Shown: positions 5,954-62,479 of the stretch, piece by piece | Layout of the letters: each line of letters starts with the position of its first letter | Numbering within the stretch: position 1 is the first letter of the stretch | Origin: Sclerodactyla briareus | Lineage: Eukaryota; Echinodermata; Holothuroidea; Dendrochirotida; Sclerodactylidae | Reading direction: 5' to 3' | Assembly: GCA_026419785.1 (NCBI GenBank) | Contig: JAODTK010004566.1 | Coordinates: 186,001 to 250,000, forward strand | Length of the DNA stretch: 64,000 nucleotides | Translations under genes and position numbers: made by a program | Notes under the pieces: generated by a model | Database searches by the model: none | What the model was told of the DNA's origin: nothing | Seen by the model: the letters and a program-made list of their open reading frames with translations, nothing else

Positions 5954-6042
5954 CTACGGTTAATCACATCAAAATCATATTAAAACAGGAGGATTCTCCC
6001 ATAGAAATGCAAGAGAAATTCGTTCAAAAGCTAAGCATAAAC

Positions 6043-9000
6043 AAGAGCACCAATGGTGCTGTAGCTCAGGACTGCCACAAATGAACAAGACAAATTTAAT
6101 TATGTGTATATGTTTAGGATCCAGAAGTCAAGACAACTTCAAACAATAGCCTTTGTGCCCCTTGTAACAACCTTGACGTTAGATCTTCATAAGGCCACAG
6201 ATGTCTGAAAGTAGAATAAACATTTGCTCTCCTCTATTCGGGTGAACACTCCATCAAAGACTAACCAATTGAGCGAGAACGCTGGCGTGGTTGATCTGCC
6301 CAAGTGTCTCGCCAGCTGTGCAATCAGTGGTTTCTAACATTAGAATGAAGCAACTGACTAGCGAAAACTATCATTGTTGGGTGAAGAGGTAGTTTTTTTA
6401 ACAAATCTCGAGAGGAAAAATTCCACCCATGGAAATGCCAATAGTAAAATTTGTTAAACTGGTTCCACCTAATTAGCCTATTTTATGCTGGATCTAGTCA
6501 GTTATGGATATGCATCTTTGATTATATGCCAAAGTCAAACCCCATCCTATAGCTTGCATGGTCCTGGCGAATTTTGCTAACGAGCGTAAACAATAAAATC
6601 TATGGAGTAGGCCAATATCATTAATTATGGTAATTGGTGCCTAAATTCTGATTAGCCCACACCTACACCCTACTCCAGTGCTGCACCTAAAACATTTTGT
6701 TTTCGATCACAAGTAATTCAATCAGCTATAGCTGAAACCCTACAAAAAATGCCCATATTTCATTGTGACTGCTTTCCTGGCCTCTGCTATGCGCTTGTGC
6801 AGTGGCCATGTAAGTATCTGTCTGGGAAAGGTTTCACAATAAATCTTGGCAGTCGGCTTGTAAACAGTCATGAAAGGCATGAATCTTTTGCTTCTCCAGG
6901 TTCTGAGAAGTGGTCGGGAGCCTGGGATTCACTGATTATCTGTTGGTTGGAAAGTAACATGGTGGTCCTGGGAACAGGTCACACCCCTGACTTGATACAG
7001 TTGACCACTTTGCTTGAGAAGAGAGAGGTGAGTCATTTCAAGATCAAAATGACCAGGATATTTAGATGAGGCTTGAATGCTTCCTGAATGTGTGAACGCG
7101 TAATCAGCAAGTAAGATCAGAAGAAAGAAGCCCTACTGGACAGAGAAATTTGATAAGAGGTGAATTTGGGACAACACTGTTTGCTACCTTTACCAGAAGT
7201 CTTTGGGTTCGGTACCAAGGTAATACTGATACTAAGATGGCAAATCAGCTAGTACACGAGAAGTATCTACAGGTTTGCATTTAAATTTAGTTTCTGTATT
7301 GAGGTGTTCAAAGCATTATTTCCTCCTCAAACATTCCACGTGGCTGGACGATACAGTGGTGGAGGCTGCACATTGGCAATGGGTGCAGCCAGTTAGCAAG
7401 AGGTGACCGGAGCCGAAGCCGAAGGCATGGCCATCGGTTTTGAGCATGGACCCTGAGCCCCAAAAGTTTGACTTCTTTTCGAGGCTAGCTCCGAGTGGGA
7501 CAAACAGTAGTTTAGTGTTGCAATTATTTATTTTACTTTTTATTATGTCATTTTCCTACAAAGCATGGGTCTGTGGCTACGGTGACAGATTGTATTAATG
7601 TCCTTAGTGTGAAGGCTACTGTACACTTGCCTATCTCAGCCTCAGATGGGAAAGAGGAGATTGTTGTCAGGGTATTCTTTCTATTGTACTTATCCAACTT
7701 TTTTTCAGAGGGGAGGGTAACTTGTCTCATATTCATCAAGCATTAAAAAACAATATTCTGGAGGGGTAGGGGCGTGGCGTTGGCAAGCTTTTTCGGGGGA
7801 AGGGTCTACTCATCCCAGCCTATCCTAACCTCAGATGGGGAGAGGGCGATGTACGATGTTGTCAGGGTTATTTTTTCTATTGTACTGATCCAACTTTTCA
7901 GAAGGGAGGGTAACTTGTCTCATATTCATACAAGCATTAACCCACAAACGTCTGGGTAGGAAGTGGGTTGGCAAGATTTTTCGAGGGAGGGTCAACTCAT
8001 ATCCAGATGAAATGTTCGATATGATCCTAAATGTATAGCGTGCCTTACACTTGGCTAGGGAAGCAGAGGTGGGTATTGTGGCAGTTGCTGATGCAATTGC
8101 ACTGTATATTTTTCAACACACTCATTCTATTTCTTAATCTATTACGTATTATATTGCATTTATTCCATTTCTTGATTTTCAACCATCAATTTTTCAAGGG
8201 GGGTGGGATTAGGCAAACGATTTCCAAATTATCTCTATCTCTTGATGTTATACTACTGCCGTCTTCTAGGGTGATTTTTTGTATTATACCAGAACCTAAG
8301 AGACTACTCTAAAATGGACAGTTTTACTTAAATTCGAAAATCTGAAGGCTACCGCACACTTGTCTGTCCATGCTCCACAACAAAATTGCAGTTACTGCTG
8401 CTCTGCAATAAACCTTCTCATTCTGTATTGGGGTGGAAGGTGAGTAGCAAGTTTTTTGTTTTTTTTCTCTGATCTGTGCATTTTATTCCAATAGTTGTAA
8501 TATTCATTTTTATTGGCATAATGCCATATAAATCATCATATTAAGTGCACATATGCACATTTGTAGGAGGGGGGTAATATCCAGTCATGGATTTTGCCTA
8601 TCTCATTCATCTCCTTCAACTTATACACACCCATGTCCTCAAAACAACAATTCTACAGGCTCTGACCCCACTATAGGCTGCAGTATGCCAAGGGAAGTTG
8701 ATAACTCGTCACTCAACAGACGCCTTCCAGTGGGTACCAAGCAAAATCCCCAAGGGCTATTTTTTAGCATCCAGGTTGCCTTGGTGTATTAATTCTGACA
8801 TGGGTCTCCAAACATGGTAGTTCGCAAGTCAAAACAGTACTTGTGAAAATTGAGTGGACTTGTGAATGGAGTTGCATAAAACTGTAATTGGGGACATCAT
8901 AGTCGTGTGGTGGGGGAAAAATATGGGGAGAGGGGAGGGTGGAGAGGGAGGGTTTTGCCAGGCTTTGCTAATGGGGAAGTAACCAGTATGGGGAATAGAG

Positions 9001-10185
9001 AGTACAGTAATCACGGAAAATTCGATTTATAGGGTTACTAGTGGAATTCAGGTTTTTTCACCATTTGTAATTTGGGGAATCCTTGGATGAAGGGGGTGGT
9101 GATTGGAGGGGATTGGCAGGCTGCATGGTGGTAACAACCCAGTATGGGGAAATAAAGAGAATACAGGATAATTTGCATTTGGAATTCAAATTTGGGGATT
9201 GTGCTCAATGAACCAAACATTAGCACTGATCCGTGCTTCAAAATATGTAAAAGCATTTTGCATGGATTTAAACATGATGGGACCTTAGGACGAACATGGA
9301 CCTTCAGCAGAAGTTCTGAAACAAACTGATGGACACTAACAAGGAAGCATTACATACAAGAAAATCAATTGGAACTGGAGATGCATTCAAGTACTAATGT
9401 GTTAATCGGGCTATAAATTCCTGGATGAGCCAAAAGGCCTCTCCTGAAGGACCATTACATGAATGTTGAAGAAGACCAATTGAAGCTTGTTGGGGGGAGA
9501 GCATTTCGAACACCATTGTGTGAAATATCATAAAATGGGCCTAGGGCTCGAGTCAGGACCTTGGAACAGAAAATCTCAACCAACAAAGCATGTCTATTCA
9601 GACCCTCATATGACCATTCGACTGAACATCAAGCACGTGCAACAATATTTGTAGGAGATATAAGATGTTAGGTATGTCATAAGGGCCCTTGGGCCCAAGT
9701 GGGTCCGGAGCCCAAATCCAAACACCCCGGTAGCCCTGACCCAAGGGACCATTACATGTAACTAGGACAACATCAAATGAATCATTGGTTTGGAGGAGAT
9801 GCATTCACGTACTATTGTGTCGTGAAATTTCACATAATGGCCTTGGGCCCGAGTGGGGCCTTGGACCAAACACCGAAGGTATGGCTGTTGGACCATCATA
9901 AGACCGAACCTCAGCACGGTGCACAAAAGTTGAAGCGGAGTACATTTTGAAAATTTTATTAATAATGGCCGATATTGCCCCTTTAAGGGCCTTTGACCGG
10001 GACCTCACAAGTTCAAACATGTCCCAAGGGTCAATGGACATGTGTCCAAAGTGTGGTACGAATTCCATCACAGAATGACTGTTTGGGAGCCAAAAAGGCA
10101 ATTGTTAACACTGGATAGATAGATAGAAAAGATTAAAGTGACATGAGATTCAATTAGCTCAACCAGCATAGCTGGTTTGAGCTAA
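6043..10185 (+). mobile_element. Helentron-like (Helitron2/HINE-type) element, long copy 1
   Basis: The left end carries the hairpin AGCACC-AAT-GGTGCT (6047-6060), followed by GTAGCTCAGG. The right end carries a short GATA microsatellite (10112-10125), then AGCTCA and the hairpin ACCAGC-ATA-GCTGGT (10162-10176), then TTGAGCTAAAA. Most of its interior recurs in the same order and orientation at 25347-30714. I see no Rep or helicase motif, so it is likely non-autonomous. By known family architecture, a 3' hairpin, a microsatellite near the 3' end and a shared inverted motif at the two ends fit Helentron-associated elements. The assignment is inference. Confidence 0.65.
7560..8000 (+). repeat. 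Internal tandem repeat of the long element, about 2 units
   Basis: Two units of about 190 bp are marked by CAGGGTATTCTTTCTATTG (7670) and GGTTATTTTTTCTATTGTAC (7866), each followed by GGGAGGGTAACTTGTCTCAT. The second copy of the element has five such units at 26930-27880. The open frames across it are low-complexity and not genes. Confidence 0.8.
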
Positions 10186-17298: not shown

Positions 17299-17490
17299 GC
17301 TGGAGTCTGTTGAGAGCACAGGGATTATCAACATAATGCTTGTGTATTGATGCTTCACAGGGAATTTCAAATTTGGTGAAAGGCAAACAACTTGCAGAGC
17401 TTGAATAGAGGGCAACAGCTTAAGAGTTATGCCTGGGGTACAAGACGTTTACAACATGGTTGATATCATAGGCATGCTGACAAAAAGACC

Positions 17491-17882
17491 TAGAGCACCA
17501 GTGTGCTATAGCTCAAACCACACAAATGCAAATTATTCCATTGCATATACTAGAGCACCAATGGTGCTGTGACCTCGAACCACACGAATACAATTCTTCA
17601 TTGCAAACTAGAGCACCAATGGTGCTGTAGCTAAAAACTCCACAATGTACTAAGAGGAATGTACAATTATGTGTTGAATGTTCAAGAACATCAGGCCAAA
17701 AAGCAGTTTGAAACAATATGGCCTATTGTGCCCCTGTAATTACTTTTGACCTTGATCTTCGTATGCATGGCCAAAGAGGTCTTCGCAGTCATAAACACTT
17801 TTTTACCCAGTTTGGTCAGTGTCCATCAAAGAATGGCCAATTGAGAAAGAAAGTTCAGACAGTGGTCTATTATGCCTAATTA
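17491..17882 (+). mobile_element. Helentron-like element, left part, with a tripled 5' end
   Basis: Three copies of the family's 5' terminal motif stand in tandem about 60 bp apart: GAGCACCAGTGTGCT (from 17493), GAGCACCAATGGTGCT (from 17553) and again from 17611, each followed by a version of TAGCTCAAAC and a CACAA line. The interior then follows the family (CCTATTGTGCCCCTGTAAT, TTTGACCTTGATCTTC). It is interrupted at 17882 by the hAT-like insertion and resumes at 22254. Confidence 0.65.
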
Positions 17883-22570: not shown

Positions 22571-22640
22571 AGAGCACCAATGGTGCTGTAAGCTCAAACT
22601 CAAATAAGTGCTAATATTTCCCTTCAGAATGATCAACAAG
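22571..22640 (+). mobile_element. 5' end of a Helentron-like element
   Basis: AGAGCACCAATGGTGCTGTA followed by AGCTCAAACTC is the family's 5' end. The interior soon becomes unrecognisable. A G run at about 22500-22530 precedes it. Confidence 0.55.
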
Positions 22641-25346: not shown

Positions 25347-28300
25347 ACAAGAGCACCAATGGAGTTGTAGCTCAAACTTCACAAATGAACCAAGACAATT
25401 CAAAATTATGTGTCATATGTTTGAGATCATGAAGTCAAGAAGGCAGACTCAAACAATTGCCTATTGGCCCCTGTAACAACCTCGTGAACTGATCGTTATA
25501 GCCACAGTTTGTCTTAGAAGTAAATAAACATTGCTATTTAGTTCGGTCAACATCCAGCGAAGAATAACCAGAAAACGGGGGACGAGGTGGATAGCGGAGA
25601 GAACAAGGGTGGTGGTCTGTCCCAAGGTTCGCCCGCTTGTGAAATCAGTGGTTTCTTACCATTAGAACGAAGAAAGGGACTAGCTAATATTACATGTCAA
25701 GTTGAAGAGGTGTTTTTAACACTCTGAGAGAGAATTCCCACCCATGGGAAATGCCAATAGTACAAATTTGTTAAACTGGTCCACCAGTTAGCATATTTTA
25801 TGCTGCAATTAGTCAGTTCATGAAACTGCCATCTTGATTAATATGCAAAAGTCAAACCACATTCATTACAAGCTGTAGGTCATGGCGTAATTTGCTAAGA
25901 GCGTAAACAATTAAATTCTATGGAATAGGCCAAATTATTCATTAATTATGGTGATTGGTGCCTAATTCTGATTAGACCTACACCTAACTTTTGTTGCAAT
26001 TAAGTGATCAGTCAGCTATAGCTGAAAAACATACGAAAACATGCCCATTATTCCATTGTGGCTGCTTTCCGTTCTGCTAAATTGCGCATGTGCAGTGGAC
26101 ATGATAGTATCTGTATGGGAATGGTTTCACAATAAGTCTTGGCAGTCAGCCGGTTAACAGTCACATGGCGCATGGAAATCTTTTGCTTCTCCAGGTTCTT
26201 GAGAAAGTGGTCAGATCCTGGCCGATCACTGATTGTCTGTTGGATGGAAAGTAAACATGGTGCTGGGAACTGGTTACACCCCTGCCTTGATATAATTTGA
26301 CCACTTCTTGCGAAGAGTAGGTGAGTTATCCAAGATTGGAAAAAAAAGAAATCAATGATTCCTAGATGAGGCTTGAATGGCTGCCTGAATGTCGTTGAAA
26401 AGCTGTAATCAGCAAGTAAAAGATTCAGAAGAAGCCTACTGGGCAGAGAAAGTGAATTATGGGTGAAATTGTGTTACACACTGAGGCTACTTCAACCAGT
26501 CGTCGTTTTTGTGTAGGGTACTAGATCATACTGATAATAATCGAGGACAAATCAACTAGTTACATGGGAATTATCTGACAGGTTTAGTCTTCAAATTAGC
26601 ATTTTAGTTTCTGTGTTATGTTAAAGCTATTATTCCTACTCATAATCATTAGATGTGGCTGTTGTTTTCTGTACAATAGTCATGAGGTTGGATATTACAG
26701 TGGTGGAGGCGCACATGGCAAGGGTGCAGCCAGTAATGCAAGCCTGAAAGCCCTGAAGGCCATGGTCATCGGATTTTGGGCAATGGCCTATGAGCCCCAA
26801 AAAAGTTGATTCTTTCAGGCCAGCTTGAGGGTAGAAAACACTAGTTAGTGTTGCATTGTACATATATATATGGCATTTTCTACAAAGAAGGGGTCCGGGC
26901 TACTGTGCACAGATTGTATTAAATGAAGGCTACTGCACAGGGGCCGACCCCCAGCCTCAGATGGGGAGAAGGGGTTGTTGTCAGGGGATTTTTTCTATTG
27001 TCCTGCATCCAACATTATCAGAAGGGAGGGTAACTTGTCTCATATTTTACGAAGCATTAACACGAATACTTCTGCAAGGGTAGGGGAGTGGGTTGGCAAG
27101 ATTTTTTGGGGGAAGGGTTCAACTTCATCCAGCCATCCCAGCCTCAGGAGGGAGAGGGCGAGTGCCAGGGGGATTTTTTCTATTGGTCTTGATCCAACAT
27201 TTTCAGACGGGAGGGTAACTTGTCTCATTCATACAATAATTAACACACAATACTTATGCATGGGTAGGGGATGGGTTGGACAAAGATTTTTTGGGAAGGT
27301 CAACTCATCCCAGCCTATTCCAGCCTCAGATGGGGAGAGGGCGATGGGTGGTCAGGGTATTTTTTCTATTGTACGGATCCAACATTTTCAAAAGGGAGGG
27401 TAACTTGTCCATATAATACAAGCATTATTAACCAAAATACTTCGGGTAGGGAAGAAGTGGGTTGGCAAGATTTTTTGGGGGAAGGTTCAACTCATCCCAG
27501 CCTAATCCCAGCCCCTCATATGGGGAGAGGGTCCGATTGTTGCCAGGGTATTTTTTCTAGTGTTCTTGATCCAACTTATTTCAGAGGGGAGGGTAACTTG
27601 TCTCATATTCAAATACAATCATTAACACACAAAACTTCTGCATGGGTAGGGCAGTGGGTTTGCCGATATTATTGGGGGAAGGGTCACTAACCCATCCCCG
27701 CCATCCCACCTCATATGGGGAGAGGGCGATTGTTTTGTCAGGTATTTTTTTTCTATTGTAACTTGATCCAACATTTTCAGAAGGAGGGGAACTTGCTCAT
27801 ATTCATCCAACATTATTAACAAAATACTTTCCGGTAGTGAAGGAAGTGGGTTGGCAGATTTTTTCGGGGGAAGGGTCAACACATATCCATATGGATTCTA
27901 CATTGTTCTAGATGAATCCTAAATGTATAACGTGCCTTACACTTGCTAGGGAAGCAGTGGGGATTGTTGGCAGTTGCTGATTGCAATTGCACGGTATATT
28001 TCCAAACAAACAAATTATATACTGTATACAATGCATATCCATTTCGGGTTTTTTCCATCCTATAATTTTTTCAAGGAGGGGGGATAGGCAAATGATTCTA
28101 ATTAATATCTATTCTCTTGAGGTTCATACTTACTGCTTCTTTAGGGCGATTTTTCGTATTATACCAGAACCTAAGAGACTACTCTAAATTGACTTTTATT
28201 CTAAATTCAAAATTCTAAGGCCACACCACACTTGCCTGTCATGCCTCCATAACAAAACCCCCCAATTGCAGTTACGTTTTACATCTGCAATAAACCCTCG

Positions 28301-30714
28301 CATTCTGTCTTTAGGGGTGGAGGGGTGGAAGGTGATCGCAAGTTTTCGCACATTTTAGAGTGGGGGGCATTCCTTCCTGGATTAGCCTAATCTCAATTCA
28401 TCTCCCTTCCACTGGGTACACCCATGTCCTAAAAAACTACAATTCCTCAGGGATGACACACTATAGGTGCAGTAATGCAAGGGAAGTGTAAATCGTCACT
28501 CAACAGACTCCCTTTCCAGTGGGCTACCAAGCAAATCCCCAAGGGCTATTTGTTTATAGCATCGAGGTGCCTTGTTGCTATTAATTATGACATGGGTCTC
28601 TAAACATGGTAGTCAAGGTTAAAAACAGTACTTGAAATTGAGTCGGACTGTGAATGGAGTGCATAAAACTGTTTAATTGGGACATCATAGTAGTGTGGTG
28701 GAAGGAAAATTAAGGGGGAGGGTTGCAGGTTAATGGGGAAGTAAACCAGTATGGGGAAATAGAGGCGTACAGAATCAAGGAAAAATCGATTTATAGGGGG
28801 TTACTAGTGGAATTTCAGGTTTATTTCAACATTTGTAATTTGGGGAATCATTGATGAAGGGGGTGGTGGGGGTGGTGATTGGGAGGATGGGCAGGCTGAA
28901 GGGGTGGGCGGTAACAACCCAGTATGGGGAAATGAAGTGAATACAGGAAATTTGAATGGATTCAAATTGGGGATATTGGCCTCCATGACGGAACATTAGC
29001 ACTGACCCGTTCTTCAAAATTATGTATAAAAGCATTTTGCATGATTTAACATGATGGGCCCTAGACAAACATTGGACCTTCAGCCAGGAAGTTCCTGTGC
29101 AAACCCTGATGGACCCACTAACCAAGGGCATACAATAAGAAAATCAATTGGAAACTTGGAGTGCATGTTCAGTACTAATGTGTTTAATTCCTTGGATCCA
29201 AGTGGGACCCTGGATCACAAGTTCCTGAACCCCCCAAGGTTCTTCGTTAGAACATCATCGGGGACCGAATGTCAGTTTACTGTGCACAAAACGTGAAGAG
29301 GAGAAGCATTTTGCGTGATTCCACATGGGGCTCTCAGACTCACACCGGGCCTGGGTCCCAAATTCCCTAGGCACCTGAAGGTATGGCTATTAGACGTCTT
29401 ATGACCGAACATTGGCACTTGTGCAACTTAATTGTAGGACATACTATTAGTTCGCAGTAATTCATAGATGGCCTAGGGCCCAAATGGGCCTGGGCGCTAA
29501 ATTCCTGGACGAGCCGAATGGCCCTCTACTGAAGGACCATACATGTAACGTTGAAGAAGACCAATTAAAGCTTGTGGGGAGGAGAGGAAGATGCATTTTG
29601 AACACCATTGTGTGAAATATCAAAAATGGGCCCTAGGGCCCGAGTCAGACCTTGGGAGAGAAAATCCTCAACACCCAAAAGTATGTCTAACAGACCATCA
29701 TAGGACCGAACATCAGCACTGTGGCAAACTGAATTGTAGGGAGGGCTACAATTAGATTTTGCAGTATTTAATGTATTGGGCCCTGGGGCCCAAACGGGCC
29801 CTGGACCCAAAGTTCCGATGGCGTCTACCCAGACCATTAATGTAACTTAAAGAAAATCCATTGAAGATTGTGGGAAAGAGAGAATTAAGTTACCATGGTA
29901 GTGAAACTCATAAAAGCAGACGGCCAAGTCGGGACCTGGAACACCAAAAATTCCTGAGCACCCCAAAGGTTACCGCTGTCAGACCATCATTAGGACTGAT
30001 GTCAGCACTGTGTACTAAAATGTTGGAAAAAGGAGAAGAAGCATTGTGCGAAATTCCACATGATGGCCCCAGGGCCCAAGGGCCTGGGGATCTAATTCCC
30101 TGGGCACTGCTCAAGAATATGGATATTAGACCCATATTACGACGAACTCAGCACTGTGCAACAAAAATTGTAGGAGAGATACAGATTTTTGGTATTTAAT
30201 ATAATGGGCCCTGGGCCACCGGGGTCCTGATCCCAAAATTCCCGAAAACACCCCCGTAGCCTACCAAGGACCATTACATGTAACCTAGAAGAACATCAAA
30301 TGAATCGTTTGGGAGGAGATGCATTTCAAGTACTATTGTGTGAAATTTCATAAAATGGGCCCTTGGGCCCGAGTGGGGCCTTGGACCAAAAAATCCTGAA
30401 CACCACGAAGGTCGGCTGTTAGACCAACATAATGACCGAACATCAGCACTGTGCAACAAAATTTGTAGGAGGAGATACATTTGAAAATTTTACACATAAT
30501 GGCCAAATGCCCCGTTAATGGGCTTGACCTTGACCTTCACAAGGTCAACATGTCCCAAGGGTCAATGAACATTGTGTCCAAGTTTGGTCGACATCTATCA
30601 CAGAATGACTGTTTGGGAGCAAAAAGGCGCAATTGTGAAACACTGGATAGATAGATAGATAGAGTGACATGCAGATTCCAATAGCTTAACCAGCATAGCT
30701 GGTTTGAGCTAAAA
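25347..30714 (+). mobile_element. Helentron-like element, long copy 2
   Basis: The left end is GAGCACCAATGGAGTTGTAG then CTCAAACTTC, with the hairpin partly decayed. The right end has GATA units (30649-30662), AGCTTA, the hairpin ACCAGC-ATA-GCTGGT (30689-30703) and TTGAGCTAAAA. It is colinear with 6043-10185 over nearly its whole length. It is about 1.2 kb longer because it has more copies of a 190-bp internal repeat and of a diverged unit with GGGCCC lines at 29.0-30.5 kb. Differences between the two copies are rich in one-base indels. No transposition protein was recognised. Confidence 0.7.
26930..27880 (+). repeat. Internal tandem repeat of the long element, 5 units
   Basis: Five units spaced about 185-195 bp are marked by a TTTTTTCTATTG-type line at roughly 26985, 27172, 27359, 27548 and 27745. 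Each is followed by GGGAGGGTAACTTGTC or a near copy. Long open frames in this stretch (up to 142 codons) follow the repeat and are not genes. Confidence 0.8.
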
Positions 30715-32270: not shown

Positions 32271-32800
32271 AAATTGCCCCTTATTCCTCTTTAATAACCT
32301 TTGACCTTTAACTTCACAAGGTCCAGTTGTCCCAGGGTCATGAACTGTTATTCCGTTCGGTCCACATTCATCAAAGTCTGACCTATAGGGGCCTATGAAA
32401 TATTTTCTTTTTCAACCGATGTACTACTCTGTTAACTCTAATGGCATTTGATGACGTTCCATCAAAAATCTGTGAACAATCTGACAGAGCGCTACCAATG
32501 AACCTTATGCTGCGCAGTTCAAGACAATCTAATGCTTTTTGTAGAGAATATCATTTTGTAATGATGACAAAATGGCCAATTGTGATGCTTTAATGCCTTT
32601 GACCTTGACCTCACAGGTCAAGAAATGTCCTATTGTCAGACCTTAGTTCAATTTGGTCAACATGAATCACAGATTGAGCGTTAGGCGCCAAAAGTAAAAA
32701 AAAAAAAAAAGCCAAAAGTCACTTGTGGACACACAGGAATATAGATTAGAATGACATGGGCATCACAATAGCTCAACCAGCTTAGCTGTTTGAGCTAAAA
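32271..32800 (+). mobile_element. Helentron-like element, truncated copy
   Basis: Two diverged interior units (AACCTTTGACCTTTAACTTC and GCCTTTGACCTTGACCTCAC) precede a run of 15 A at about 32697. The family 3' end follows: AGCTCAACCAGCTTAGCTGT and TTGAGCTAAAA, ending near 32800. The hairpin has lost one base on its right arm. No 5' end was found. Confidence 0.6.
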
Positions 32801-35404: not shown

Positions 35405-35654
35405 CTGAAAAAAACAGTACATGAAGTTCCATTCAGCATTTCATGTCCAGTCTTCTTTCCATGGCATGGGAGCTGCCAATGCTGTAGTAATCTATTGTAC
35501 TTGACTGATATAAAAAATGAACAACGAGAACAAAAACAAAGGTTGAAACGATAGTGTAGCTCAAACATTTGTAATTCGTGGGAGATGGTCCCTGTGGCGA
35601 CACATTTGTTGCGGCAGGCCCGGCTTTTTTTTGAAAAAGATGCAGACTGATCAC

Positions 35655-42949: not shown

Positions 42950-43466
42950 AATTGCTGTAGTGGGCTGGTCAGCTGTTAGACCATAAATATGACATAACAT
43001 TAGCACGGGCACCATTGGTCCATTGTGCCCCTTTAATGCCATTCGACTTTGACCTTAGGTGGTCAACGATGACCCATCAGTCAATAACATTGTGACCAAG
43101 TCTGGTCAAGATTCACATTGTGGCTCAAAAAGCAAAAGACAAACTGGATAGATAGCAGACAGACAGATAATAATAAATAATAATAATGTGTAATATTTAT
43201 ATAGCGCAATATCACAAATAGTACCAATGCGCTTAACAGAAAAAAGAAATTGAAGTCCTAAAATAACAATAGAAACAGCAGTCAAGAGTGAAAAAACCGA
43301 AAGGAAGCCACAAAGCTGCAAGTGCGAAGACCCTAACGAAGAGAAGCGTTTTAAGCCTTGATTTGAAAGAATTCACACTAGATGGATGGATAGGCGGGCG
43401 GATGGACGGACGGACGGACGGACGGACAGACAGACAGACAGATAGCATAGCTGGTTTGAGCTAAAA
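42950..43466 (+). mobile_element. Helentron-like element, truncated copy with a nested LINE
   Basis: The interior lines TTAGACCATAAATATGACAT and TTGTGCCCCTTTAATGCC lead to a GATA/GACA microsatellite. This is broken by a LINE fragment at 43168-43378, and the microsatellite resumes as GGAT, GACG and GACA runs to 43443. The family 3' end then follows: AGCATAGCTGGTTTGAGCTA. Confidence 0.65.
43168..43378 (-). mobile_element. 5'-truncated LINE 3' end
   Basis: On the minus strand the segment encodes NSFKSRLKTLLFVRVF, a block typical of the C-terminus of LINE ORF2 proteins, followed by a stop. The tail contains GCGCATTGGTACTATTTGTG and GCGCTATATAA, and ends in ATTATTATTATT. Only about 210 bp remain. 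It has landed inside a tetranucleotide microsatellite; no clear target duplication is visible. Confidence 0.7.
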
Positions 43467-44869: not shown

Positions 44870-45720
44870 AGTAATTATATCCCCTTCGGGAATACTATGG
44901 TTTCGGCTTCCGGCTCCGCCGTCTCCGCCGCGTTTCTTGTTAGCGCAATAACTCTCCAACACCTTGTCCGTTGGAGCCGAAACTTGGCACACATGTCCGC
45001 CATAGTGAAATCTCAGAGGTTCGAACGTGGATGTCGCCGCACTGCAGGGTCAAGCTAATTTGCATACTTTGCAGATTTTAAAAAGTTGGTCGGATTTCAC
45101 GAAACTGTAGGTAGGTGGGGAATATGTTTGGTCCCAAAAAGAGTGAAGGTCATTTCAAGGTCACCAGAGGTCAAATTTCTCGCGAGGTACAAAAGTTTGT
45201 TGGATTTCAATGAAACTTAGTTGGTGTGAACGATGTTTGGTCCCGAAAAAAGTGGAGAACATTTCGGGGTCATCAGAGCGTCAAAGTCACGCTAATTGCA
45301 AATTGCGCGTTTTTCAAAGTTGTTGATTTCCCCAAACTTGGTAGGTGGGGGACTATAATGGTCCTGAAATAAGTGAAGGTCATTTCAAGGTCACCAGAGG
45401 TCAAATTACGCTATTATCGCAAGTTTGTCTGGATTTAACGAAACTTGGAGGTGTGGACGTGTTTGGTCCCGCAAACAAGTGGAGGGAGGACATTTCGTGG
45501 TTATTCAGTGGGGTATGGTGGCGTATGTGAGTCGGCTTGTGATCACGATAATTCACCCCACCTGATGGATGAAGCTCATACTTGGTATGTGGGTTCCACA
45601 TAATGAGTACATGAAAGTTCAATTTTGAGAAAATACAGCTAGGTATGAGGAGTGGTCCTAGTGTTCCCCCACAAGGTGCTAAATACAGCTCATCTGTCAC
45701 CAGAGAGCACCGAAAAAACC
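44870..45720 (+). repeat. GC-rich interspersed repeat (family C), forward copy
   Basis: Starts near CCCCTTCGGGAATACTATGG and a GGCTCCGCCGTCTCCGCCG line. At least four diverged units of about 130 bp follow, each with a GGATTTCACGAAACT-type line, a TGTTTGGTCC line and a GGTCATTTCAAGGTCACCAG line. A reverse copy lies at 40984-41620. Confidence 0.65.
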
Positions 45721-50727: not shown

Positions 50728-51845
50728 ATCGCGATTTCAGACCTGACCCCAAAACGTTAATGTTCATGTACTCATCATGGGGGAACACATATACCAAATA
50801 TGAGCTTCATCCATCTACATGGGTCATTTACAGTGTTCCCAAAATTAATTGGGCCAAAAACATTTTTTAGGATTTTTCACAAATTTTTATTTTGGACCCC
50901 AAATTACCCCAATCTACACCAAAAACAATAGGGTTCTTGTTCTCCCCAGAAGAAAGCTATACAAAATTTCAACTTGATCGGACCACCATTCTGGACTTAT
51001 CAGGTTTACAAGGCTTTCAGATTTTGATCTGGTGACCTAAGATGACCTCCGACCTGACACCAAAACAATGGGGTTCATGTACTCATCACGAAACGCACAT
51101 ATTAGGTATGAGCTTCATTCATCCAAATGGAGTGGAGTTATTGTGTTTACAAGCTCAATTTGGCCAAAATATCGATTTTTCTTGGAAAGTGTTGACCAAA
51201 AAAGACCCCCAGTCTACACCAAAAACAGTAGGGTTCCTGCTCCATAAAAGAGCTATACCAAATTACAACTTGACCGAACCAACTATTCTGGACTCCTCAT
51301 GTTCAAAAGTTTTTCGACTTTGACCTCTAGTGACCTCAGACCTGACCCTAAACACAATGTTCATGTACTCATCATGGGGGAACACATATACCAAATATGA
51401 GCTTCATCCATCTAGATAGGGTTGAGTTATCATGTTTTTGAACTAACATCAGCCAAAATATTGATTTTCCACAAAATATATATTTTTGACCAAAAATGAC
51501 CTCTGATCTACACCAAAAACAATAGGGTTCTTGTTCTCCCCATAAGAAAGCTATAAACCTAATTTCAACTTGATGGGACCAACCATTGTGGACTATCCTG
51601 TTACAATGATTTCAGACTCTGGCTCTGCTGACCTCATATGACCTCTGACCTGACACCAAAACAACAGGAATCATGTGCTCATAATGGGGGTACACATATA
51701 CCAAGTATGAGCTTCATCGACTCAACTCAGACTAGAACAAGTTACCATGTTTACAAGCCAGGTGTCACATACATACCATCTCACACCACATACATACACA
51801 CAGACATTGACACACAGATTCCTCAGACCTTGTCAAGGAATAAAA
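50728..51845 (+). repeat. TGACCT-rich interspersed repeat, copy 2
   Basis: Three to four units of about 300 bp are visible, each holding a TGACCTCTGACCTGACACC-type line, a GGTTCATGTACTCATCATGG line and a CCAACCATTCTGGACT-type line. The family ends in CTTGTCAAGGAATAAAAAT, as in the copy at 1741-2255. Frames inside (51042-51323, 51638-51937) follow the repeat. Confidence 0.8.
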
Positions 51846-55139: not shown

Positions 55140-56120
55140 CTCTTAGCCATTTCATGACCTTTGACCTCAAATCCTTGACCATCCCCAAAAGGTACAAGTT
55201 TCTATCCTCGAACTATGAGAAGACTGGAATGAATTACCATCGTCTATAATGAAAGCCCCAGTTAAGTGTTAGCAAGCCTGCCCACACACAGTTCTAGTGC
55301 TGCCTGATGTTTACTGAACACCAACATCCTTGTTGTGATAAACCGAAAGGGGTCTTAACGAGTAACCAAGCACAGAAGCCAAGCAAAAATGCATATATAC
55401 CCATTAGCCCATGATAACACTATCTAAGTATTATGTGCTCCCAACTATACATCTGAAGAGAGAGAAGGAATTTTTATAGATTTTTTTGCATTTTCTACTG
55501 AACTTATTAAGCCCCTTGGGGACCTTCGGCCTGAATCTTTCCATGCCCCTTCAGGACCTTTGACCTGAATCCCTGAATTACTAGTCCATGTCATTTCGGA
55601 CCAATTATCATGAAAAATCCAAATTAGTCGTAGGAGAAGAAGATTTTGTCAGATTTCCACAGATTCTTTTTAGCATACTAAGCTCATTAGCCCTTTAAAT
55701 GACCTTCGACCTTGAATCCCTGAACTTGGGTAGTCAGTACAGTTCAATATAAACTGACCAGTGATCAAGGGTAATCCAACCCTAAATCTCATCATCATCA
55801 TTATAAACAGTTTTACATCAGAAGTCCATGCTAGCATGGTTCGACGGGAGCACCCGATGGCAACTCTTCCACTCCAATCTATCCTGGGCTAGGGCACCTG
55901 GTCTACCGTTTGACATCAAGTCACTACGAACAACCTCGTCCCAAGTCCTTCCCAAGCCTACCCCCTCCTACGGCCACTACCAGACATCTGTAGGAGAAAT
56001 GTGACTCAAAAGATGTCCCATGGTCAATAACCGTCTGTCATGAGACTGAATGGATGGATAGTTGGATGGATTGGATGGATGGATGGATTGATGAATTGAT
56101 CCACCATGCTGGTTTGAGCT
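55140..56120 (+). mobile_element. Helentron-like element, right part
   Basis: Repeated interior lines (CATGACCTTTGACCTCAAAT, ATGACCTTCGACCTTGAAT) lead to a GGAT microsatellite (56048-56090) and the family 3' end ATCCACCATGCTGGTTTGAG then CT. The next element starts six bases later. Confidence 0.6.
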
Positions 56121-56126
56121 CAAGAA

Positions 56127-57430
56127 CTAGAGAACCAATGGTTCAGTAGCTCAAACCTACAAGTAGTGAACTGGTTGTGTTATTTTGATTGTGCATTGAT
56201 TTCATTTTACTGACCTTTGATGACCTGAGCGAGCATCAGAAGATTATAACGTTGTGAGATAAGATACATTATAGTTTTTTTACACACAATGGCCCATGAG
56301 GCTCCTTCAATGACCTTTGACTTTGAGTTCACTTAGGGCCTAAACTTCGGGCGGTCAAACGTCACACGCAGTCACTGGATATATGTCCAACTCTGGTCAA
56401 TGTTCAATCAACAGCCTGAGCATTTGGGCAAAACATGCAATTGCATGTACAGTACCATCCTTTCAAGGACCTCCCACCTACGATTCCTGTGGACCCTAAG
56501 TGTCACTAGCAATGATAATACTGTTCACATACTGCAATCTGACCTAATCTGCATTTTTCCACATCATGGCCATTGCCATTGACCTTAACCTTTTAGAGGT
56601 CAATGATGACCCATCGGTCAATAAACCTGGGTGGGTTGGGACCAAGTGTGGGCAGATCCATCGAGGCATGATATTTTGAGGGCGTAAAACATGCAACTTG
56701 CATATGATTGTACAATTACATAATTGCTTACTACCCCCTTCAAGACCTTTCCCCTCAAATTCCTGTACAAATGCATAGGTACCCTTTCAATGATACAACT
56801 GGTCATGTATAATGGCAATCCGACCTAAGTTGCAAAAGGTAGCCTTTTGCTTCTTCTTTTTTACCTAAGGTACGCTGTTTAACCACATATGGCCGACTGT
56901 CAGCAGACTATGCCCAATGTTTGTATAGACACAAATTTTGGCATTATTTTCATATCTGGGCCCTAGAGTCCAAAATATTTCGGAACACCCCAATGGCCCA
57001 TCTACCCAAAACCCTTCATGTAACTTGAAGAAAATTGATTGAAGCCTGTTGGAAGATGCATTCCAAGTACATTGTGTTAATTTCTAAACTGGGCCCTCTG
57101 GCACAAGTGGGACCTTGATAAAAGTTCCCTGAACACCCCAAAGGAATGGCTGTTGGACCACAATATGACCGAACATTCATCCCTGTGCACGCAATCTATC
57201 TACTTTGTAGAAGTCGTGTTTTGCAGTTTTCCATTTAATGCCATTTGACCTATACATTGAGGTGGTCAATGGTGACCCATCAGTCAATAACGTTGTAACC
57301 AAGTCTGGGCGCGATTCATCATAGCAGGACCAGTTGGTGCCCAAAAACCAAAGTTCACAGACTAGACAGACAGACCTACAGACAGACAGACAGAAGCAAA
57401 TAGAAGATAATAGATAGATAGATAAGATAT

Positions 57431-57466
<36 letters not shown>

Positions 57467-57531
57467 GATCGGAAGATAGGTCAAATGACATGGGCATCAC
57501 ATAGCTCACCCGCATAGCTGGTTTTAGCTAA
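56127..57531 (+). mobile_element. Helentron-like element, near-complete copy
   Basis: The 5' end is GAGAACCAATGGTTCAGTAG then CTCAAACC, a compensated version of the family hairpin (GAACC-AAT-GGTTC). The 3' end has GACA and GATA runs, then ATAGCTCACCCGCATAGCTG and GTTTTAGCTAAAA. At about 1.4 kb it shows both ends of the family clearly. No gene seen inside. Confidence 0.7.
57361..57475 (+). repeat. GACA/GATA microsatellite
   Basis: Runs of GACA then GATA units with small interruptions, next to the 3' end of the Helentron-like element. The position is typical of the family in this window. Confidence 0.9.
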
Positions 57532-59699: not shown

Positions 59700-60330
59700 G
59701 CGATTAAGCCAATGTGATATAGGTGCGGGAGGATTTCGCCACACACAAACCCAGAAGGCCATACTTACACTGTGGAGAACGTGCTGCTGGTTCGAGAGAC
59801 TTGGCCGCACACAAACCCAGAAGGCCATACTTACACTGTGGAGAACGTGCTGCTGGTTCGAGAGACTTGGCCGCACACAAACCCAGAATGCCAAACTTAT
59901 ATTGTAGAGTATGTGATACAATTTCAGGAGGATTTAGCTGCACACAAAGTCAGTTGCCAGATCTGTCCTCATACAATTAGTGTGGAGAGTGTGTTGGGTG
60001 TACTGGCATATGATATTGCTATGTGATGATTCTATAGCTCTCTAGTGCACAAGTATCGCATACCTACACTGTAGGGTATGTGATATAGGTGCGGGAGGAT
60101 TTCGCCACACACAAACCCAGAATGCCAAACTTATATTGTAGAGTATGTGATACAATTTCAGGAGGATTTAGCTGCACACAAAGTCAGTTGCCGTACTCAC
60201 ACTGTTGAGTGCGTGATGTAGGTACGAGAGATATAGTGGCACACAAAATCAATTGCCGTACCTACACTGTAGGGTACGGTGATGTAGGTACGGGGGATAT
60301 AACCACACACAAAGTAAATTACAAAACATA
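59700..60330 (+). repeat. Minisatellite of about 60-66 bp units with a higher-order copy
   Basis: About ten diverged units share CCACACACAAA, then GCC and a TACACTGTAGGGTATGTGAT-type line. Two units at 59753-59884 are identical with a 66-bp period. A block of about 78 bp (from AACCCAGAATGCCAAACTTA) occurs at about 59880 and again at about 60114. Because 66 is a multiple of three, frames stay open on both strands and give repetitive false ORFs. It lies in the third intron of gene R. Confidence 0.85.
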
Positions 60331-61059
60331 CAGTGTAGAATGTGTGCAATATGACAACATCGTAGCAGTAGTGAAACAATGGGGGAATTGGTGTACAACT
60401 CAATAACGTAACATTCAGCTGAAACATGGAGCCATAGAAAACTTGTGCAAAGTCAATACTTACAATATAATATAATACATATATACCGATTCCGAAGTGT
60501 TGTAATTTATTCCGCGTGTGAGCGACAGCTAATTCAGTGGCTTATGTAAGCTGCATACGTATTTCGAGAGACTGGGCACAGCCCCGTTAAGGTTAATGTT
60601 ACAATATTTTATACTTGCTCCCATATATGGCTTGGGGTTCCTCCACAAAATGATTAGCCTTGACAAATACTCCCTCTCTGTCATATGATGCAGCGGAACT
60701 AAGTGAACATACCAATGTAATTAACATACCATATTCATTTCTGATAGGAGTCCATGGCCAGCCCTCATAATAAGTGTTCAGCCTGCGTTCGCTTTAGACC
60801 AACTTTGTGAGTCCATCAAGTTGAGAGAATGAGAAAAAACATAACTTCCATTGAGGTCTCGAAAAAGTTAATAATTCTGTTCCACTTTAGTACACTTTCA
60901 AAGTTCATAACCAGATATAGTAATACAGTTGAGTTTTCTCTGAAATCAGGATAAGTTGAATAAATTGTGAGTAGTGAGCTAAACTGTGGCTGTTACCTTC
61001 TCATTTGAATATGATTTCCCTGTCCAATGCAGATTTCCAGCACTGAGAAAAATAATCAC

Positions 61060-61431: not shown

Positions 61432-62275
61432 AAAAGTGCCAATGTCACAGTAGCTCACCTGGTGTGTGTAAATTTGTTTGAGTTCCACTAGTGCAATCTG
61501 ATGAGAAGTGACTGATTGAGCTAACATTGATGTCATAATAGCATTTGGGACCTTGGACTAAAAAATCCTGAACAACCCATAGGTATGGTTATTAGAGCAT
61601 CACTATGACTGTGATTTCAAATGAAGGGCTGGCCATATGGCCCACATTGGGGATTGGGCCAGAAATTCACAAACAACCCCCAATGGACCACTACCCAAGG
61701 ACCATTGCATGTAAATGAAAAATTGATAGAATTTTGTAAGAGGAGATGCATTTCAGGCACCATTGTGTGTAGTTTCATGGAGTGGGCCCTCGGTCCCGAG
61801 TGGGACCTTGGACCAAAAATTCCTGAACACCCGGGCGGTAAGCTTATCACACCATCATTATGATTGAATATCAGCACTCTGCATCAAAGTGTGTAGGAGG
61901 GAAGCATTTGCTTGATTGTACATGATGGTCCTCAGGGCCCACACTGGGCTTCAGGTCCAACATTTCTGAGAACCTCGAAGGTACGGATATTAGTCCATCA
62001 TTATGATCAAGCATCAGCACTGTGCCACAGAATTTGTAGGAGGAACTTTTTGCATTTTTTCACATGATGGGCTCTAGGGCCTACATTGGGGCCATCATCC
62101 ACACATAAGCCCTGGGTCCAGAGTACCCAACACCCCCAATGGGCCTCTACCCATGATCCATTACATGTAGCTATAGACCGACAGACAAACAGACAGATAG
62201 ATAGATAACCATGCAGGATCACAACAGCTCACCCAGCGCAATAGCTCACCCAGCCATATGGCTGAGGTGAGCTAG
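61432..62275 (+). mobile_element. Helentron-like element, AGCTCACC subtype
   Basis: The 5' end AGTGCCAATGTCACAGTAGC then TCACC replaces the usual TCAAAC. The 3' end has GATA units, then AGCTCACC and the hairpin CAGCC-ATAT-GGCTG and AGGTGAGCTAG. The inverted motif at both ends has changed together, from TAGCTCAAAC to TAGCTCACC. The element is about 0.84 kb, lies in an intron of gene R, and carries the usual GGGCCC interior lines. Confidence 0.65.
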
Positions 62276-62289
62276 TTTTGCAGAATGGT

Positions 62290-62479
62290 TTATGGGGATA
62301 TACAGAAGCACTGATCGAGTACTGGCTGAGGAATTGGATATGCAAGGGAATTCCCCTAGGATTTTTTTACAAGAGAGATTTCTAAAACCAAGAAGCCATT
62401 TCCCATCAGTATTATCCCAATTTGAACTGGGAGGGCATTTCCTTCTACAAATGTTTTGTGTGGCTGGTTTGAGCTAAAA
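62290..62479 (+). mobile_element. Decayed 3' end of a Helentron-like element
   Basis: GGCTGGTTTGAGCTAAAAA (62462-62480) is the family 3' end and directly abuts the splice donor of gene R exon 2. The preceding 170 bp are not recognisable. Confidence 0.4.

Follow-up and report, generated by a model that had tools for sequence, protein, structure and literature searches.

HINE-Type Elements in Sclerodactyla briareus: A Large, Probably Helentron-Related Family of Apparently Old, Non-Coding Copies

Introduction

Several described systems resemble the elements reported here. Cg_HINE of Crassostrea gigas is described in PMC7492417 as carrying, in this order, a 5′ subTIR of 11-12 bp, a complementary inverted repeat a few bases further on, a microsatellite mostly of 4-nt units, central tandem repeats, a 3′ subTIR and then a palindrome, and as inserting into T-rich DNA without target-site duplication. 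The present family is alike in all these points, the likeness being one of described layout and not of compared sequences, and differs in that a decayed Rep locus here bears the same 5′ module. HINE-Mo and Helentron-Mo of the mite Metaseiulus and DINE-1 of Drosophila, as described in PMC4067079, share with it subTIRs, a 3′ palindrome, Ts at the boundaries, the absence of target-site duplication, and non-autonomous copies that outnumber the autonomous ones. On the other hand, about 20 bp separate the 3′ subTIR from the 3′ end in the present family, versus 38-60 in Metaseiulus, and, unlike for HINE-Mo/Helentron-Mo, no intact autonomous partner was found here. Finally, the Helitron2 elements of Fusarium (FoHeli) have asymmetric terminal inverted repeats and, in FoHeli1 and 2, hairpins at both ends, as here; in contrast, FoHeli1 and 2 are reported to insert between TNAT and A (T in the legend of the same paper), their 3′ inverted repeat lies 38-51 bp from the end, and they carry transposase genes (PMC5148889).

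We analysed a 64,000-nt stretch of Sclerodactyla briareus DNA (the window; GCA_026419785.1, contig JAODTK010004566.1, positions 186,001 to 250,000), together with the 319-Mb assembly to which it belongs. The repeats found there very probably represent non-autonomous rolling-circle elements of the Helentron/Helitron2 group (HINE-type), which would depend in trans on a Rep/helicase for their movement. Elements of this kind are well known; these copies are filed as a new HINE-type family, since a literature search for their terminal motifs, with Repbase outside its scope, turned up no paper on Helitrons, judging by titles and abstract beginnings. To the families already described it adds a large one whose ends are mapped, for which empty sites have been compared and which is physically linked to a decayed Rep.

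Copies and Termini in the Window

The window repeats are real and belong to a single large family dispersed in the genome, as a preliminary description had proposed on the basis of four copies with hairpins at both ends. Indeed, TAGCTCAAAC is found 9 times in the window, where shuffles give a mean of 0.07, and, genome-wide, the terminus pattern of the AGCACC end (the 5′ end of that description) gives 1077 matches and that of the other end (its 3′ end) 546, both at up to 3 mismatches, while the reversed-pattern controls of both termini give 0. Matching was done by counting mismatches, with no indels. In the window, full-terminus matches at up to 6 mismatches number 2 and 5 for the two patterns, against 0 in 10 simulated windows; at up to 10 mismatches, the simulated windows themselves yield means of 0.6 and 2.1, so that the weakest matches (35539 and 61433) carry no weight alone.

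The features of the window are listed below. We use 5′ and 3′ according to the polarity argued for in the next section.

6042..10184, minus strand: copy 1 (terminus matches with 0 and 3 mismatches; sequence), with its 5′ terminus at 10155-10184 (subTIR and complementary arm), a GATA-type microsatellite at about 10113-10126 and the 3′ palindrome at 6046-6060
7659-7971: repeats of copy 1 related to the 185-bp array of copy 2 (repeat search)
17490..17636, minus strand: 2.5 tandem 58-bp units bearing the AGCACC-end terminus (TRF and terminus matches)
22571..22598, minus strand: isolated 3′ terminus with 6 mismatches (terminus match)
25348..30711, minus strand: copy 2 (terminus matches; alignment to copy 1), with its 5′ terminus at 30682-30711, a microsatellite at about 30645-30664, the 3′ subTIR at 25368-25377 and an imperfect 3′ palindrome
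26950..27884, minus strand: tandem array within copy 2, period 185 bp, 5.0 copies (TRF)
32769..32798, minus strand: 5′ terminus of another copy (motif and terminus matches)
35539-35566: possible partner 3′ end of the terminus at 43434..43463, at chance level by itself
43434..43463, minus strand: 5′ terminus beside a tetranucleotide microsatellite at 43380-43442 (TRF and terminus matches)
56097..56121, minus strand: variant 5′ terminus of a further copy, lying head to tail with copy 3, beside its 3′ end
56127..57530, minus strand: copy 3 (terminus matches; TRF), with microsatellites at 57357-57394 and 57400-57466 and a 3′ palindrome with a compensated pair (GAACC/GGTTC)
61432..62274, minus strand: copy 4, divergent, with TAGCTCACCT at either end; its 5′ flank ends in AAAAC, with no T-run
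62467..62476, minus strand: 5′ subTIR after TTTT, without complementary arm (motif match)

Compared with this list, the preliminary description had placed copies 1 to 3 correctly to within about 3 bases (6043-10185, 25347-30714 and 56127-57531), and its four copies exist; it had missed the termini at 17490-17636, 22571, 32797, 43463 and 62476, and also the one at 35539, which by itself is at chance level. The 3′-terminus match of copy 4 has 10 mismatches out of 28, which taken by itself is within chance. A doubled AGCACC terminus resembling that at 17490-17636 is also present in a genomic locus (L012), the two termini being 110 bp apart.

Between copies 1 and 2, identity is 71-82% in the main alignment blocks and 65% in one smaller block. 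In a sample of 60 genomic loci picked by their termini (L005-L064), the best identity is 88.7%, leaving aside the overlap of two loci on one contig, and the sample looks old. The copies appear old and, in the ORFs scanned (see below), protein-less, and their number in the genome is high. We also observed that matches to the AGCACC end are about twice as many as those to the other end (1077 versus 546), with patterns that differ in length and of which one forces outside bases; an excess of the AGCACC terminus across the genome is possible.

Anatomy and Polarity of the Elements

Read on the minus strand, the 5′ part of the element consists of a T-run, the 11-bp subTIR TAGCTCAAACC, a complementary arm, a tetranucleotide microsatellite and a body with tandem repeats; the 3′ part consists of the 3′ subTIR GGTTTGAGCTA, the palindrome AGCACC-ATT-GGTGCT, CTCT(A/T)G and T-rich DNA. 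At the 5′ end, the sequence TAGCTCAAACCAGC-TAT-GCTGGTTGAGCTA places the 11-bp subTIR within a long hairpin. The subTIRs TAGCTCAAACC and GGTTTGAGCTA are present in many loci and reach the 11 bp or more expected of a HINE, and the palindrome AGCACC-ATT-GGTGCT is found near the 3′ terminus, beyond the 3′ subTIR, again as expected of a HINE. Tetranucleotide repeats occur at +30 to +130 in 31 of 39 five-prime ends, compared with 46 of 1000 random stretches of the window.

The 10-base motif that had been noticed at both ends of the copies is exact, among the window copies, in copy 2 only: one end reads TAGCTCAGGA in copy 1 and TAGCTAAAAC in copy 3, and both ends read TAGCTCACC(T) in copy 4. Likewise, only copy 1 retains the AGCACC/GGTGCT hairpin intact; copy 2 has a broken version (AGCACC-AAT-GGAGTT), copy 3 has GAACC/GGTTC in its place, and in copy 4 the hairpin is degenerate.

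The preliminary description had labelled the AGCACC end as 5′. These labels are probably swapped, since the layout matches that of Cg_HINE given above (PMC7492417) and the rule, stated in PMC4067079, that 2-4 nt separate the 5′ subTIR from the 5′ terminus and that the palindrome lies nearer the 3′ terminus than the 3′ subTIR. We hold with good confidence that the TAGCTCAAACCAGC-TAT-GCTGGTTGAGCTA end is the true 5′ end and the AGCACC-ATT-GGTGCT end the true 3′ end. Given this reversed polarity, the microsatellite, which had been assigned to the neighbourhood of the 3′ end, probably adjoins the true 5′ end instead. The orientation of a Rep gene at C2413 (see below) agrees with it; counting against it, some Helentrons are reported to carry Rep on the opposite strand (PMC4067079). 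Two further observations speak against the reversed polarity. First, the doubled termini here are AGCACC ends (17490-17636 and L012), whereas plant Helitron arrays are described as combining multiple 5′ ends with a single 3′ end (PMC12628747). Second, AGCACC ends are about two times as many as the others, in a comparison of patterns that are not strictly comparable. The point matters for annotation, as a wrong-end reading of such elements misplaces both the terminator and the microsatellite.

Boundaries and Insertion Target

The ends coincide with sharp copy boundaries. On the 3′ side, where the patterns left the outside bases free, 43 of 46 AGCACC ends have TT at positions 3-4 after CTCT, and T makes up 46% of positions +5 to +12 versus 28% of the window. 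On the 5′ side, at least four Ts precede 7 of the 10 ends that were not forced by the pattern (10184, 30711, 32797, 43463, 57530 and 62476 in the window, and 99112 on contig C2413); the three without a T-run are copy 4 (AAAAC), a tandem junction in locus L019 (GTT) and the variant end at 56121. Loci L035-L064 and the pattern-chosen 5′ ends were left uncounted, the pattern having ended in AAA beyond the terminus, which partly forces a T-run.

The insertion site was resolved by joining the flanks of one copy (L046). Among the 40 rows scored of 537 candidates, 12 are self matches and 28 are genome places that span the junction at 78-86% identity. We aligned 14 of these 28 empty sites: they show a T-run at the position of the element and no flank repeat other than Ts, in a comparison that reads a T duplication of 1-3 nt and none at all alike, and the bases directly left of the T-run vary among them. 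These empty sites are paralogous and concern one copy. Altogether, the flank pairs queried genome-wide were five whole, one nearly whole and one tail, and only the L046 pair gave empty sites. Locally, 14 joined flank pairs were tested (L035, with an indel at its 3′ end, and the row of the copy at 56127, a self match, being dropped), and they gave 4 spanning matches to other loci, at 73-78% identity and gappy at the junction. At one well-resolved site, then, insertion into a T-run occurred without duplication of non-T sequence, in keeping with the T-rich or TT insertion without target-site duplication expected of HINEs.

We also considered head-to-tail junctions as a sign of rolling-circle events and set them aside: 2 exact head-to-tail, 0 head-to-head and 0 tail-to-tail junctions are too few, and a bias towards the T-rich strand would by itself tend to yield head-to-tail arrangements, which makes them unusable as such a sign.

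Coding Content and Link to a Decayed Rep Gene

For the four copies 22 ORFs were listed, and a Pfam scan of 10 of them gave 0 matches at E 0.01. The copies thus show no recognisable coding in the ORFs scanned and, with their microsatellite and tandem array, conform to what is expected of HINEs. The preliminary description had seen no Rep or helicase in the window, and none of the genome matches scored for the PF14214 (Helitron_like_N) and PIF1 profiles falls within it. Genome-wide, the PF14214 search gave at least three rows at two loci or more, and the PIF1 search at least one row, interrupted by two stops; among the genome matches scored, which were a few first-look candidates per search, there is no intact Rep or helicase. 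A decayed Rep was recovered behind a 5′ end of the family (C2413), but no full-length copy encoding Rep or helicase between the same ends was seen among these matches.

This locus, at C2413:102597-103668, contains Rep fragments (PF14214, E 3e-9 and 3e-11) whose motif 2 carries S (RGSPHAH, in RIEFQQRGSPHAH), that is, the RGSPH form; S in Rep motif 2 is given as a sign of Helentrons in PMC4067079. A 5′ terminus of the family lies at C2413:99112 on the same strand, with the Rep 3-4 kb downstream. The 11-bp subTIR of this terminus is exact and its 30-base hairpin has 10 mismatches; from 99112 onwards, a 542-column alignment is 81% identical to copy 2, and a module of family-like repeats extends to about 102365. 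From 99112 to the Rep and on to 114800, the only matches to the 3′ terminus have 10-11 mismatches out of 28, and a good one is found at 98322, upstream of 99112. On the simplest reading, the Rep lies within a decayed autonomous member whose 3′ part was lost or rearranged; possibly, the 5′ terminus and the Rep instead reflect nesting. Judged from the sequence, the arrangement ties the family to a putative Helentron-like Rep.

Searches with the two Rep fragments both led back to C2413, and one of them also to C2926. The C2926 Rep carries GSPHIH after a stop, and no family ends were found near it (18.0 kb, both strands). Separately, locus L072 (G000:C3088:174149-177400) shows a decayed PIF1-type helicase followed by an endonuclease-like motif; no family ends were found near this helicase in 14.3 kb of the helicase strand. 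Helentrons are expected to carry an AP-endonuclease domain joined to the C-terminal side of Rep/helicase. The endonuclease-like motifs, seen by eye, are GDFN and SDH after the C2413 Rep and GDFN after the C3088 helicase. These pieces are putative endonuclease remnants, to judge by eye, and in Pfam they give E 0.14 and nothing over a cut-off.

Nature of the Family

The HINE-type reading, which the preliminary description had offered as a possibility, is supported by the anatomy, by the sharp boundaries and by T-run insertion without non-T duplication at one well-resolved site. It is also supported by the decayed Rep with a Helentron-type motif behind the 5′ module of the family. From the known biology of the group, Rep would nick the 5′ terminus beside the T-run, the helicase would displace one strand, the palindrome after the 3′ subTIR would mark the end of transfer, and the single strand would be joined into T-rich DNA. 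Irregular rolling-circle events may account for the tandem termini and arrays. The layout itself (hairpin subTIR, microsatellite, tandem-repeat core and 3′ palindrome) is the same as in the oyster and in arthropods, which suggests that it is functional.

Within the group, a Helentron partner is probable. The alternative that survives best is that the copies are non-autonomous Helitron2 elements, with the same group and termini and an autonomous partner that lacks the endonuclease domain. The ends fit, as Helitron2 is described as inserting beside TTTT and as having a hairpin at either terminus and terminal inverted repeats that are asymmetric (PMC5148889); the Pfam result on the endonuclease-like pieces also leans this way, and the candidate coding loci (C2413, C2926 and C3088) are too decayed to discriminate. 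However, the microsatellite, complementary arm and tandem core fit the descriptions of HINEs (PMC7492417), and endonuclease-like motifs, by eye, do follow the C2413 Rep and the C3088 helicase. We consider a Helitron2 partner unlikely and a Helentron one likely.

MITE-like cut-and-paste elements, the class in which DINE-1 was formerly placed, would show a short inverted motif at both ends and no Pfam domain, as in the 10 of 22 ORFs scanned, with palindromes at the ends by chance. But the inverted motif is asymmetric, at one terminus and about 20 bp inside the other, a non-T target duplication is absent at the resolved site, and a Rep gene stands behind the same 5′ module on C2413, all of which makes this reading highly improbable; the combination of target-site duplication and transposase, on which the HINE-type reading would have foundered, was seen neither at the resolved site nor in the tested ORFs. 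Just as improbable are non-autonomous elements of the canonical Helitron1 type, which would share a 3′ palindrome near the terminus and a PF14214 Rep in the genome and are already contradicted by the termini (no 5′ TC, and a 3′ consensus CTCT-W-G-TT instead of CTRR), by the subTIRs, by T-run insertion at the resolved site and not between A and T, and by the RGSPH, not RGLPH, motif of the Rep.

Folding and Covariation of the Terminal Hairpins

The 5′ hairpin of the HINE-type copies folds better than 200 of 200 shuffles. The fold of the 3′ palindrome is moderate (z -2.3, with 5 of 200 shuffles as good), and that of its variant reaches z -1.6 (16 of 200 as good). In the genome, the third stem pair of the 3′ palindrome has its C changed in 31 cases, facing a Watson-Crick partner in 24, a wobble partner in 2 and neither in 5. 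Since one identical sequence (AGAGAACCAATGGTTCAG...), which loses the outermost pair, accounts for 18 of the 31, the compensated palindromes represent one or few events. Covariation is also seen between subfamilies, with TAGCTCAAACC versus TAGCTCACCT at both ends of copy 4, and GCACC/GGTGC versus GAACC/GGTTC. It is conceivable, if rather doubtful, that different Rep lineages each recognize a matching pair of ends. If true, this genome, rich in terminal variants and with hardly any Rep that could be detected, could reveal how both termini are recognized by Rep.

Other Repeats of the Window

Satellite-like repeats are present at 1748-2131 and 50759-51730 of the window and at L069:96-2882 (period 321 bp in L069), and thus occur both in the window and in sequence lying downstream of the decayed Rep gene; they are possibly the core array of a sister family. 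Two other tandem repeats were observed, one of 66 bp (GCCGCACACAAACCCAGAA...) at 59732-60338 and one of 109 bp at 45081-45407, with units like GGTCATTTCAAGGTCACCAGAGGTCAAA.
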